DNA of 64,000 bases from Brachybacterium paraconglomeratum (GTDB lineage: Bacteria > Actinomycetota > Actinomycetes > Actinomycetales > Dermabacteraceae): NCBI RefSeq assembly GCF_003994255.1, contig NZ_ML133851.1, positions 62,001 to 126,000 of the forward strand, read 5' to 3'. The notes beneath the pieces are model-generated. The model did no database searches. It was given only the letters and a program-made list of their open reading frames with translations, and was not told the DNA's origin. Below are positions 13,686-37,955 of the stretch, one piece after another; position 1 is the first letter of the stretch; every line of letters starts with the position of its first letter. A program made the translations under genes and the position numbers.

Positions 13686-13793
13686 CTGCCGTGCCGGTGC
13701 GATGGAGCACCCCCGAGGAGCTCCCCGAACCGGTGTCACAGTCACTTCACAACGGATCGTCCGGCACGTACCTGCCGGTGAAGGAGAACCACC

Positions 13794-33823: not shown

Positions 33824-34746
33824 GCGGCGTCCTCGCGGGCTTCTTCATCGTCTGGTCCATGATCGGCGTGGGCTGGGTGGTGGGACGCACCGGCGTGCTC
33901 GGCGCCCACGGCCGCTACGTCCTGAACCGCACCACCTTCTTCGTCGCCTCCCCCGCGCTGGTCCTGGTGGGGCTGCTCGGCTCCGATGTGCGCTCCGTGT
34001 TCTCCCTGCCGATGCTGGTGGCCGGGCTGTCCGGGCTCGGCACGGGCGCGCTGCTCATCGCCGGGGTGGCCCTGTTCACGAAGCGGCGCGGCGCGGATCT
34101 GGTGGTCACCGCGATCAGCGGCTCCGTCGTCAACGGCGCGAACATGGGCTTCCCGATCGCCGCCTACGTGCTCGGGGACATCTCCCACGCCCTGCCGGTG
34201 ATCCTCTTCCAGCAGGCGGTCTACACGCCTCTCTATCTCTTCGTCCTGCACCGGGTCACGGAGAAGGACGCCCAGGGCGCGGCCGGGGTGCTGCGCAGCA
34301 TCGTCGCGAACCCCGTCATCATCGCCTCGGCCATCGGGCTGGTGCTCGTACTGATCGGGGTGAAGGTCCCCGGGGTGGTGCTCGAGCCGGTCCAGTCCCT
34401 GGCCGACATGGCGATCCCGGCGATGCTGCTGGCCTACGGGTTGTCCCTGCACGGCTCGCGCCCGCTCGCGAAGGACGACGGATATCGCGGGCTGATCGCC
34501 GTCGCCTCCGGTGCGAAGCTCCTCGCCATGCCGCTGATCGCGCTCGGGATCGGACTGCTGCTGGGGATGCGGGGCGCCCATCTGTACGAGGTCGTCGTCA
34601 TGGCGGCGCTGCCCACCGCGCAGAACGTGTACGTCGCCGCCGCCCGCTACCGCGCCTCGGAGAACCTCGCCCGGGACACGGTGCTCATCACGACGATCGG
34701 GACGGTGCTCGTGCTGCTGCTCATCTCCGCGGTGCTCGACGTCTGA
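33820..34746 (+). CDS. AEC family transporter (auxin-efflux-carrier-like permease)
   Basis: 308 residues with about ten hydrophobic segments in two five-helix halves. The first is GVLAGFFIVWSMIGVGWVVG; the conserved Asn region is NGANMGFPIAAYVLGDI; the second half begins VANPVIIASAIGLVLVLIGV and has MAIPAMLLAYGLSLHGSRPL and AALPTAQNVYVAAARYR. AEC proteins are secondary transporters of organic acids such as malate or malonate. No adjacent enzyme hints at the substrate. The GTG start overlaps the stop of the small upstream ORF. Confidence 0.87.
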   Translation: MSGVLAGFFIVWSMIGVGWVVGRTGVLGAHGRYVLNRTTFFVASPALVLVGLLGSDVRSVFSLPMLVAGLSGLGTGALLIAGVALFTKRRGADLVVTAISGSVVNGANMGFPIAAYVLGDISHALPVILFQQAVYTPLYLFVLHRVTEKDAQGAAGVLRSIVANPVIIASAIGLVLVLIGVKVPGVVLEPVQSLADMAIPAMLLAYGLSLHGSRPLAKDDGYRGLIAVASGAKLLAMPLIALGIGLLLGMRGAHLYEVVVMAALPTAQNVYVAAARYRASENLARDTVLITTIGTVLVLLLISAVLDV

Positions 34747-34775
34747 TCGGGCGGGTCCCTCCGCGACGGGCGCGC

Positions 34776-34781
34776 TAGGAT
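34776..34781 (+). promoter_or_regulatory. -10 box of the leuS leader transcript
   Basis: TAGGAT, 6 bases before the GTG of the leader peptide, the same spacing as at other leaderless starts here. Transcription should begin at or next to that GTG. No clear -35 hexamer is visible. Confidence 0.55.
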
Positions 34782-34787
34782 GGCACG

Positions 34788-34853
34788 GTGACGGAACGGC
34801 TGCTGCTTATGCAGCCGCGTCGGACAAGGCCCGCGACCGTGTCGCGCTCCTGA
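34788..34853 (+). CDS. leucine-rich leader peptide of leuS
   Basis: A 21-codon frame beginning GTG-ACG-GAA-CGG, followed by three consecutive Leu codons CTG-CTG-CTT at positions 5-7 and ending in TGA. Three Leu codons in a row just upstream of a leucyl-tRNA synthetase gene, followed by a terminator hairpin, are the hallmark of ribosome-mediated attenuation. The peptide itself should have no function. Translation probably starts at the 5' end of the mRNA (leaderless, -10 at 34776); an AGGA lies 7 bases upstream but would be outside such a transcript. Confidence 0.7.
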   Translation: MTERLLLMQPRRTRPATVSRS

Positions 34854-34914
34854 GGGAGCGCCCGGCCACGACGAGGCACCGACGCGGCTCCCCTCGCCTG
34901 CGCGAGGGTTTTTT
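34813..34914 (+). promoter_or_regulatory. leuS transcription attenuator (alternative RNA pairings)
   Basis: Four elements. (a) AGCCGCGTCGG (34813-34823, just after the Leu codons) is exactly complementary to CCGACGCGGCT (34879-34889), 11 bp. (b) A 7-bp hairpin, GCGCTCC (34844-34850) with GGAGCGC (34855-34861), spans the leader stop. (c) GAGGGAGC (34852-34859) can instead pair with GCTCCCCTC (34887-34895) with one bulge; this excludes (a) and the terminator. (d) An intrinsic terminator: CCCTCGC (34891-34897), loop, GCGAGGG (34902-34908), then six T. A ribosome stalled on the Leu codons would mask (a), allow (c) and so prevent (d). Confidence 0.65.
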
Positions 34915-34997
34915 CATGTCATGAGGCCATCACCCCACTGCCTGACCCACTGCCTGGCGGCCCCGGCCGCACTGATCCTTCGGAGGACGATCCACCC

Positions 34998-37955
34998 ATG
35001 AGCGAGGCACCCCACCGGTACACGGCCGCGATGGCGGACGAGATCGAGCTGCGCTGGCAGCAGCGCTGGGACGAGGAGGGCACCTTCCACGCCGACAACC
35101 CCGTCGGCGAGCTGCGCGGCACCGCCCCCTCGCTCGAGGAGGCCACCGCCGCCGCCACCTCCTCGTCCGAGAAGATGTACATCATGGACATGTTCCCCTA
35201 CCCCTCGGGGTCGGGGCTGCACGTCGGCCACCCGCTGGGCTACATCGCGACCGACGTGGTCGCGCGCCACCAGCGCATGCTCGGCAAGAACGTGCTGTAC
35301 ACGATGGGCTACGACGCCTTCGGCCTGCCCGCCGAGCAGTACGCGGTCCAGACCGGCACCCATCCGCGCACCACCACCGAGGCGAACGTCGCGAACATGC
35401 GCCGCCAGCTGCATCGGCTGGGCCTGTCCCATGACGCGCGCCGCTCGCTCGCGACCACGGACCCCGAGTTCGTGAAGTGGACGCAGTGGATCTTTCTGCG
35501 CATCTTCGACTCCTGGTACGACCCGGACGCCCCGAACGCCGACGGCGTGACCGGGCGCGCCCGGCCGATCGCCGAGCTGCGCGAGGAGCTCCGCGCCGGC
35601 ACGATCGATCCCTTCGCCCTCGCCGACCGGCAGGGCCTGGAGATCCCCGCCGCCTGGCAGGGCCGCAGCGCCGCCGACGTCCCCGGCGCCTCCGATGCGG
35701 AGATCGCGCAGCTGGCCGACGGCTTCCGCCTGGCCTACATCTCCGAGACTCCCGTGAACTGGTGCCCCGGACTCGGCACGGTGCTGGCCAACGAGGAGGT
35801 CACCGCCGAGGGCCGCTCCGAGCGCGGCAACTTCCCCGTCTTCACCCGTCGCCTGCGCCAGTGGAACATGCGCATCACCGCCTACGGCGACCGCCTGATC
35901 GACGACCTGGACCGGGTGGACTGGCCCGAGTCGATCCGCTCCATGCAGCGCAACTGGATCGGCCGCAGCCACGGCGCCCAGATCAGCTTCCCCGTCGCCG
36001 GTCTCGCGGACCACGAGGACGCCGGCTTCGACGTCTTCACCACGCGCGCCGACACCCTGTTCGGCGCGACCTTCTGCGTCCTCTCTCCCGAGCACTCCCT
36101 GCTGACGGACGTCTCCGCCCTGCCGGAGGCGTGGCCCGAGGGCACGCACGAGGCCTGGACCGGCGGCGCCGCGAGCCCCCGCGAGGCCGTCGCCGCCTAC
36201 CAGGCGCGCGCCGCCTCGCTGGACGAGGACGAGCGCACCGAGGAGGGCCGCGAGAAGACCGGCGTGTTCACCGGCCTGTTCGCGACCAACCCCATGGACG
36301 GCCGCGAGCTGCCCGTGTTCACCGCCGACTACGTGCTGATGGGATACGGCACCGGCGCGATCATGGCCGTGCCCGCCGAGGACGAGCGCGACTTCGCGTT
36401 CGCGGACCGCTTCGAGCTGCCCGTGATCCGCACTGTCCGCCCGCCGGAGGACTTCACCGGCGGGGCCTGGACCGGCGAGGGCGAGAAGATCAACTCCGCC
36501 TCCGCGGAGCTGGATCTGAACGGCCTGGACAAGGAGGAGGCGAAGGCGCGCGCCACCGCCTACGCCGAGGAGAAGGGCTTCGGTCGGGCCCGCACCACCT
36601 ACCGCCTGCGGGACTGGCTGTTCTCCCGGCAGCGCTACTGGGGCGAGCCCTTCCCGATCGTCTACGACCCCGCGGATCCCGAGACCCCCATCGCGCTGCC
36701 GGAGTCGATGCTGCCGGTGGACCTGCCGGAGGTCGCGGACTTCTCCCCGAAGACCTTCGACCCGATGGACGCCGACACCGAGCCGCAGACCCCGCTCTCG
36801 CGCGCCGAGGACTGGGTCGAGGTGGAGCTGGACCTCGGCGAGGGGCCGAAGACCTACCTGCGCGAGACCAATACGATGCCGCAGTGGGCGGGTTCGTCCT
36901 GGTACCACCTGCGCTACATCGACCCCACCGAGGACGAGGTCCTGGTGCGGCCCGAGAACGAGAAGTACTGGCTGGGCGCCCGTGAGGAGGGCGGCGTCGG
37001 CGGCGTGGACCTCTACGTCGGCGGCGTGGAGCACGCGGTGCTGCACCTGCTGTACGCGCGGTTCTGGCACAAGGTGCTCTTCGACCGCGGCGACGTGACC
37101 AGCCAGGAGCCCTTCCACCGCCTGTTCAACCAGGGCTACATCCAGGCCTACGCCTACACCGACTCCCGCGGCGTGCACGTGCCGGCCGAGGAGGTCGTCG
37201 CGGAGGCAGACGGCACCTTCACCTACCAGGGCGAGCCGGTCACCCAGGAGTACGGGAAGATGGGCAAGTCGCTGAAGAACGCGGTCGCGCCCGACGACAT
37301 GTACGAGGAGTACGGCGCGGACACCCTGCGCGTGTACGAGATGTCGATGGGGCCGCTGGACCTCTCCCGCCCGTGGGAGACCCGCGCCGTGGTCGGCTCG
37401 CAGCGCTTCCTGCAGCGCCTGTGGCGCCTCGTGATCGACGAGGAGACCGGGACGCTGACCGTCTCCGACGAGCCGGCCGACCTGCCCACGAAGCAGGCCG
37501 TGCACCGCGCGATCGACGGCGTGCGCCGCGACATGGACCGGATGCAGTTCAACACTGCGATCGCGAAGCTCATCGAGCTGGTCAACCACCTCACCAAGCA
37601 GCTCACCTCGACCGGAACCGTGCCGCGCGAGGCCGTGGAGCCGCTGGTGCTGATGGTCTCGCCGCTGGCCCCGCACCTGGCCGAGGAGCTGTGGGTGCGC
37701 CTGGGCCGCTCCGGCGGGATCTCCCGCGTGGCGTACCCGGTCGCGGACCCGGAGCTGCTGAAGGCCGAGCAGGTCACCTGCGTCGTCCAGGTCAAGGGCA
37801 AGGTCCGCCACCGGATCGAGGTCGACCCGGAGATCTCCGCCGAGGACCTCGAGGCCGCCGTCATGGCCGAGGACCGGGTCAAGGAGCTGCTCCAGGGGCA
37901 GACGGTGCGCAAGGTGATCGTCCGCGCCCCGAAGATCGTGAACATCGTGGTCTGA
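34998..37955 (+). CDS. leuS: leucyl-tRNA synthetase
   Basis: 985-residue class I synthetase. HIGH-equivalent region [20 protein letters not shown] (HVGH). The CP1 editing domain spans about residues 290-510 ([52 protein letters not shown]). The leucine-binding [14 protein letters not shown] follows, then the KMSKS-equivalent KMGKS in [16 protein letters not shown]. The anticodon-binding and C-terminal domains end [16 protein letters not shown]-like. GGAGGA lies about 10 bases before the ATG. Expression is probably set by the Leu-codon attenuator directly upstream; 34915-34997 is the rest of the leader. Confidence 0.97.

Follow-up and report, generated by a model that had tools for sequence, protein, structure and literature searches.

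A leucine-codon leader and a switch helix flush against a terminator precede leuS in Brachybacterium paraconglomeratum: a probable transcription attenuator on a scaffold shared with other branched-chain genes

Does Brachybacterium paraconglomeratum read the supply of charged tRNA-Leu ahead of leuS, and if so, by what kind of switch? The question is raised by a locus in a 64,000-nucleotide stretch of contig NZ_ML133851.1, here called the window, in which a short frame with leucine codons, two complementary arms, and an intrinsic terminator precede the gene for leucine--tRNA ligase (Table 1). A first-pass annotation had proposed a ribosome-mediated attenuator reading leucine codons, and this proposal is now supported by conservation beyond the genus and by the exchange of codons at other branched-chain genes. 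The best reading of our data is an attenuator of a known kind with an unusual, abutting switch helix and a presumed switching step. The element is real and looks functional; it is homologous to a known leader, of which it represents a long-leader variant.

Table 1. Features of the leuS leader region (positions in the window)
Feature	Position	Strand	Basis and remarks
-10-like box TAGGAT	34776-34781	+	Sequence; 6 nt 5' of the leader start codon, leaderless-type promoter
Leader peptide frame, MTERLLLMQPRRTRPATVSRS and stop	34788-34853	+	GTG start at 34788, TGA stop at 34851-34853, 21 codons
Leu control codons CTG 34800, CTG 34803, CTT 34806	34800-34808	+	The near-invariant one is the last, CTT 34806-34808
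Arm A of the switch helix, AGCCGCGTCGG	34813-34823	+	Sequence, covariation
Local hairpin at the leader stop codon	34844-34861 (34844-34850 with 34855-34861)	+	Fold; long-leader clade, 21 long leaders compared
Arm B, CCGACGCGGCT	34879-34889	+	Partner of arm A; covariation, duplex test z -3.28 (100 elements)
Intrinsic terminator	34891-34914	+	7-bp stem 34891-34897/34902-34908, loop CTGC, TTTTTT 34909-34914
leuS, leucine--tRNA ligase	34998-37955	+	ATG at 34998; TIGR00396, 864 bits, E 9.2e-260

Within the window, several parts of the first-pass annotation held up. The frame of 21 codons with three consecutive leucine codons is present before leuS, and its leader recurs in all 38 genomes of the genus; the complementarity of the two 11-base arms is exact, giving an 11-bp helix (A:B) that covaries across families; and the 7-bp terminator with its six T is present, with every helix cell paired in the 36 genus sequences aligned. 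This terminator is the sole terminator-like site within positions 34700 to 35000 (terminator scan; mean for shuffles, 0.0). Both a short leucine-run frame directly 5' of leuS and a hairpin with a U-run between leader and gene are arranged as in LeuL2-type leaders. A simple sigma-70 scan detected no promoter ahead of the leuS leader, so that a leader promoter is assigned from the conserved -10 box together with its spacing. The folding energy of the element is ordinary (z -1.75; 12 of 200 shuffles fold equally well or better), and it is by conservation, not by folding energy, that the element exceeds chance. Its minimum-energy fold includes a 5' hairpin linking the leucine codons with the base of arm A. 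At the gathering score, Rfam yields a single match in the window, an msiK RNA (RF01747) at 13734-13792 (60.9 bits).

Across the genus, leuS was matched in 38 of 38 genomes, 37 of which have a readable upstream region (in the other, G029, it is cut at a contig end). The leader is present in all 37, and covariance model R3 finds it in all 38. Its length is 21 residues in 20 of the 37 genomes and 8 residues in 14, with single genomes having 20 (L020), 15 (L028), and 12 (L034). One genus member (L027, genome G011) has kept the leader and both arms and lost the U-run of the terminator; it was left out of the genus alignment of 36 sequences on which model R1 was built. In this alignment, 98.6% of the cells of A:B and the terminator are paired. 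Only three pairs changed on both sides, which is not unusual (66 of 500 shuffles reach 3), because most pairs never vary within the genus.

Covariation became apparent across families. In an alignment of 43 leuS leaders from the genus and other families of the order (the basis of model R2), 94.5% of the cells of A:B and the terminator are paired and 11 of 18 pairs changed on both sides, although the alignment was fitted to the structure, and these pairing counts lean towards it. Compensatory cells numbered 92, compared to 24.9 in shuffles (none of 500 reached 92) and 0 to 6 in slid controls. Furthermore, the variable part of A:B forms 5.11 of 6 pairs, compared to 4.22 with shuffled partners (0 of 2,000). 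The base of the helix, GCCGC with GCGGC (alignment A3, pairs 49-53/146-150), behaves differently: its five pairs are invariant in 43 of 43 sequences while the others covary. These five pairs are approximately the bases that would lie under a ribosome on the control codon.

How far does the element reach? Model R1 matched 57 of 297 genomes of the order (matches checked in part), and 40 places that were fetched comprised 31 before leuS, 3 before leuA, and 6 before neither (L104, L106, L107, L109, L111, and L112). L104 (E 4.5e-6) was rejected as a leader, being by eye the end of a tRNA gene followed by a terminator; E-values near 1e-6 from these briefly calibrated models can thus arise by chance. 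Model R2, with leuS leaders only in its training, matched 141 of 296 class genomes at E ≤ 0.01 (checked in part). Of 88 loci from this search, 57 precede leuS by tblastn, or 56 of 87, since L130 and L192 are the same place. With the mixed model R3, matches at E ≤ 0.001 appeared in 121 of 148 class genomes, frequently at three places per genome. At E ≤ 1e-4, the model matched 27 of 198 phylum genomes, of which 15 lie outside the class (both searches checked in part). Sixteen places outside the class were fetched: 11 lie before ilvB, 2 before leuS, 1 before a leuA-type gene, and 2 have no assignment (tblastn). Loci from one genus are related and not independent counts. A search of the own genome with R1 returned chance-level extra matches only (E 0.7 to 9.8).

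No fitting Rfam family was found in the whole window (gathering score) or in 11 sample loci (E ≤ 1), where three weak, unrelated matches stayed below their gathering scores; hence, such leaders are probably unannotated in many genomes. The same scans, with no T-box match in the window at the gathering score or in the 11 loci at E ≤ 1, make a T-box or another tRNA-binding leader hardly credible here, even though the target is an aminoacyl-tRNA synthetase and ileS T-boxes are reported for Actinobacteria in PMC1262725. What is conserved is the leader frame with its codons, which also argues against a T-box.

To describe the leader itself, 127 leuS loci were parsed, of which 102 passed and 100 are distinct (L088 equals L114, and L130 equals L192). 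Nine of the 25 missed loci were recovered and 16 were not, two of the latter (L092 and L117) being one place. The duplex, offset, invasion, and terminator-probability runs used 100 elements including two repeats, i.e., 98 distinct ones. The parser required CCGC and GCGGC, whose invariance in the parsed set is therefore by construction; the independent count is that of the 43-sequence alignment. Between the -10 box and the leader start lie 6 nt in 84 of the 100 distinct leaders and 7 nt in the other 16.

The most constant part of the coding sequence is a single codon. The last leucine codon is CTT in 107 of 109 distinct leuS leaders (99 of 100 parsed and 8 of 9 recovered), with a parser that preferred CTT where several frames fitted; each of the two exceptions, one per set, is CTC. 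Outside the genus, the final control codon is CTT in 63 cases and CTC in 1. The preceding codon varies (53 CTG, 41 CTC, 7 CTT, and 1 CGC; n = 102), and the leuS gene of the window uses CTT for none of its 80 leucine codons. Some leaders retain this last control codon as their sole leucine codon (MASQQQRLIGPR in L103 and MTRRVLPQPR in L086). The invariant part of arm A starts 8 nt past the first base of the CTT, an offset that was built into the search pattern.

In 70 of 98 distinct leuS elements, the leader ends next to arm A or within it, with the stop codon at offsets from the arm A start of -2 (27 elements), +7 (37), and +10 (6). The clade of the window departs from this, with offsets of +37 in 20 members and +34 in 1: the TAG terminating the 8-residue form is replaced there by CAG or a different sense codon, and the frame therefore runs through arm A. 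Long leaders (28 elements, 21 of them from this clade) have a longer loop between the arms (mean, 63 nt versus 37 nt). In the clade, the hairpin at the stop codon averages 5.95 bp, compared to 3.71 bp with its right side shuffled (0 of 1,000) and 5.48 bp with partners swapped between relatives (8 of 1,000).

Which pairing, then, would oppose the terminator? The first-pass annotation had assigned this role to an antiterminator, 34852-34859 with 34887-34895, that a ribosome reaching the stop at 34851 would block. Indeed, six contiguous pairs exist in the window (GGGAGC 34854-34859 with GCTCCC 34887-34892), and, for the window sequence taken alone, the duplex of the loop with the terminator's left side has an energy of -10.1 kcal/mol. 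This pairing is not conserved in the genus, however: 65.8% of its cells are paired in the 36 sequences, compared to 47 to 69% for slid versions, no change is compensatory, and its columns are gapped in 14 to 22 of the 36 rows. Over 89 elements, duplexes of the loop and the left terminator side are on average no more stable than shuffles (mean z 0.14). In addition, the segment 34852-34859, which a ribosome at the stop was supposed to cover and so free the terminator, lies on the 3' side of the stop-codon hairpin in the clade of the window. With the stop beside or inside arm A in most elements, arm A, and not this segment, seems to carry the logic shared by the family, and we regard a switch built on 34854-34859/34887-34892 as very unlikely.

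A search for other antiterminators pointed in the same direction. In all 98 distinct leuS elements, whose terminators were sought freely, 0 to 3 nt separate the end of arm B from the terminator stem. Measured against dinucleotide shuffles, A:B (z -3.28, 100 elements) is the sole tested pairing with better energies. Pairings of loop or leader with either terminator arm were not enriched (mean z -0.23 to +0.35 in 89 to 100 elements); that of the leader with the right arm had the highest share of elements with z < -1 (25%), at a mean of -0.21. Antiterminators formed from loop or leader with the terminator arms were accordingly rejected as conserved features, their energies being no better than those of shuffles. 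So was an outward extension of A:B as a conserved base-sharing antiterminator, since it invades no terminator base in 99 of 100 elements and one base in the remaining one. The 5' hairpin of leader and arm A base likewise failed as a conserved anti-antiterminator (mean z -0.31 in 98 elements and -0.18 in the clade of 21). In L009 and L014, an arm A-like segment, GCGTCGGTGC, lies directly 5' of arm B and could pair with it in place of arm A.

In sum, about 100 elements yielded no conserved case of the textbook competition between antiterminator and terminator for shared bases. The conserved feature is a helix flush against the terminator, with no detectable conserved base-sharing antiterminator. 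A:B and the terminator have no bases in common and coexist in equilibrium folds. With ribosome coverage assumed to extend 13 nt past the first base of the codon, the mean terminator probability in 100 elements was 0.93 for the RNA without a ribosome, 0.94 when a ribosome occupied the control codon, and 0.89 when it occupied the stop; this probability fell below 0.5 in 5, 3, and 6 of the 100, respectively. An equilibrium switch was therefore discarded: the terminator probability hardly moves with the position of the ribosome, and thermodynamics alone gives no switch, kinetics not being addressed by this calculation.

Sequence comparison shows that promoter spacing, leader, control codon, A:B, and terminator are conserved, as is the spacing between them, and that codons are exchanged with the target gene. 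From these we infer the transcription start, the stalling, the direction of the switch, and the mutual exclusion of the abutting helices. We consider it likely that the leuS leader is a ribosome-mediated transcription attenuator tuned to charged tRNA-Leu, with A:B most likely hindering the terminator. A leaderless transcript would begin at or beside the GTG at 34788. When leucyl-tRNA is scarce, the ribosome would stall at the leucine codons, chiefly at the rare CUU, and its position would set whether arm A pairs with arm B; A:B, abutting the terminator, would in turn set whether transcription terminates. In the most likely course, a stalled ribosome would leave sufficient arm A exposed for pairing with arm B, and the resulting helix would hinder the terminator; a ribosome that completes the leader would mask or block arm A, allowing the terminator to form. 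The position of the stop in 70 of 98 leuS leaders suits this direction, since a terminating ribosome would cover arm A.

A point against this direction is that a ribosome with the CUU in its A site would itself occlude roughly five bases at the start of arm A, assuming a typical footprint. The role of A:B may also be the opposite, in that it stacks on the terminator and helps it, a ribosome on the CUU blocking A:B and thereby allowing read-through into leuS. The distance of only 0 to 3 nt between helix and terminator in every distinct leuS element would suit such stacking, and so would coverage of about the first five helix pairs by a ribosome stalled at the CUU, on the same general footprint. 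It also fits the clade of the window, where a terminating ribosome is past arm A. However, the stops in 70 of 98 elements let a terminating ribosome cover arm A, and a helper helix would then imply read-through during normal growth unless the ribosome is released fast; moreover, the terminator is strong by itself (mean, -12.7 kcal/mol). For these reasons, we hold a helper role to be rather unlikely and prefer a hindering A:B. In the clade of the window, where the stop lies 34 to 37 nt past the arm A start, a terminating ribosome would not cover arm A; it would sit in the loop beyond and could hinder A:B by bulk only.

The strongest argument for a codon-reading ribosome as the sensor is that codon identity follows the pathway gene. 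With genes at class loci assigned by best tblastn match, LL occurs in 99 of 100 distinct leuS leaders and II in none. In a count for the other genes that took the leader frame richest in I, L, and V and so favors such peptides, leaders of citramalate synthase (cimA) have II in 58 of 60 and LLL in none, ilvB leaders have V beside I, L, or V in 20 of 20, with the codon GTA in all 20, and leuA leaders have LLL in 7 of 7. R3, whose training covered Ile leaders, supplied 41 of the 60 citramalate synthase loci; the 19 found by R2, with Leu leaders only in its training, are free of that bias, and all 19 have II. NCBIfam top ranks for ten of the non-leuS genes were citramalate synthase (5), acetolactate synthase (3), and 2-isopropylmalate synthase (2), on genes that were cut short, 8 of the 10 scoring below the curated cut-off of their best family. 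For two further genes after scaffold leaders, the best match was to threonine ammonia-lyase families.

The remaining scaffold is retained at these genes. The stop is placed for ribosome cover of arm A in 49 of 50 cimA and 15 of 16 ilvB elements (60 and 20 were given to the test, and both helices were found in 50 and 16). Arm B lies 0 to 2 nt from the terminator in 50 of 50 cimA elements and 0 to 3 nt in 14 of 16 ilvB elements, small gaps that are partly by construction, since the search for these terminators was confined to a span reaching from 2 nt 5' to 8 nt 3' of the arm B end. The own genome has a second copy, found by R3, before ilvB (L201, G000:C10:154173-154291), with the leader MQTILLVVPERG and stop, whose last branched-chain codons are GTA GTT.

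Some places extend the picture. The scaffold with MPQHLMVIT or MPLFLMVIT, each followed by a stop, stands before a threonine ammonia-lyase-like gene, from position 101 of the reading strand, in L251, L260, and the near-identical L256, the gene assignment resting on scans of L251 and L260. The leuA leaders L105, L110 (two genus members), and L108 have the -10 spacing, the Leu run, and the CCGCG arm of leuS leaders. L185 has the scaffold with MFTPRIII and a stop, and the frame that follows has no Pfam match. L279, from outside the class, has a leader-like end, CTG ATC ACC TAG, with a prephenate dehydratase frame further downstream. The leuS and mixed models found six LEU-type leuA leaders (L105, L108, L110, L182, L187, and L188), in which no terminator was seen by eye; L186 and L249, ahead of another leuA-type gene, have one.

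The hairpins may instead bind a protein or a small molecule without codon sensing, as proposed for the leuA LEU element. According to experiments cited in PMC1262725, regulation was unaffected when the Leu codons in a leuA leader were mutated, and a regulatory protein was suggested; mutation of candidate codons in the ilvB leader of Streptomyces coelicolor had no effect either. The GCCGC/GCGGC pairs, invariant in 43 of 43 sequences, also hint at more than pairing. Against this stand the tracking of the target gene by codons in leuS, cimA, ilvB, and leuA leaders, the fixation of CUU despite its rarity, and the lack of a fitting Rfam family in the window and the 11 loci, so that we consider such a sensor improbable and keep to a ribosome that reads codons.

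The wider findings are the broad occurrence of the scaffold, the exchange of codons, the fixation of a rare CUU, and the failure to detect a base-sharing antiterminator. As a tentative generalization, which may well prove too broad, the scaffold (leaderless promoter, short frame, control codon about 8 nt before arm A, and helix flush on the terminator) might be constant and the codons alone swapped, with Leu for leuS and leuA, Ile for citramalate synthase and one family's threonine ammonia-lyase, and a mixed set for ilvB; the abutting helix, with no antiterminator that shares bases, might rule the terminator purely by its position, sterically or by stacking, and a control codon that is a rare synonym might make the leader a sensor of one isoacceptor.

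If the comparison is right, leuS attenuation would be a common device of the class and not a Streptomyces curiosity, and the codon exchange among leuS, cimA, ilvB, and leuA would constitute a natural test of codon sensing. About 100 elements without a conserved base-sharing antiterminator raise the question of whether a merely touching helix can switch a terminator off or on, and the fixed rare CUU that of whether attenuators sense one isoacceptor. Among the matches listed, no paper on a cimA or citramalate synthase leader or its attenuation was found in the open-licence literature. The work of Lopatovskaya from 2010 is said to be a comparative survey of attenuation and may hold more. The words leuS and citramalate are absent from PMC10272879 and PMC2965389.

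How does the element compare with known systems? As in the classical trp and leu attenuators, the control codons match the amino acid of the target gene; there, however, antiterminator and terminator share bases, whereas no conserved pairing of this kind was found here. The ilvB1 attenuator of Mycobacterium tuberculosis, for which SEnd-seq revealed a short transcript, is likewise described in PMC13236596 as a branched-chain upstream frame with a terminator, although gene and codon set differ. The attenuator of Corynebacterium ilvBNC (the ilvB-II motif; PMC10272879 and PMC11857589) has a short upstream frame located at the 5' end or close to it, control codons for branched-chain amino acids (CUU and GUA among them), and an antiterminator base next to the terminator base; in Corynebacterium glutamicum, mutations support an antiterminator hairpin with its base adjoining that of the terminator (PMC11857589). 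In the three-hairpin model given there, the two hairpins overlap by the trinucleotide GCC, whereas A:B invades the terminator in 1 of 100 elements; the model also has a 5' anti-antiterminator hairpin, and the window fold has a 5' hairpin too, whose pairing is not enriched in 98 elements.

The leuA LEU element of PMC1262725 has a similar Leu-codon run and CCGCG-type arm and was published as a pseudoknot with the Leu codons paired with the ribosome binding site. Published relatives include the leuS leaders of Streptomyces. Attenuators before leuS were predicted by Seliverstov in 2005 in S. coelicolor and S. avermitilis, along with ilvB leaders in several genera (PMC1262725). RNA-seq of Streptomyces lividans TK24, as described in PMC8079986, revealed LeuL2 (MRAVRLLLSEPR), a leaderless leader with a terminator. 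Like the element in the window, these have a Leu-codon leader before leuS followed by hairpins and a terminator, and the promoter spacing in the window fits a leaderless transcript with a presumed start. The exact LeuL2 peptide occurs in 7 of the 100 distinct parsed leaders, so that the element belongs to this group by homology, beyond mere likeness. Compared to LeuL2, the leader in the window is longer (21 residues), has lost the stop beside arm A, and has a longer loop and a stop-codon hairpin. The two reports describe Streptomyces, whereas the element described here is widespread in the class.
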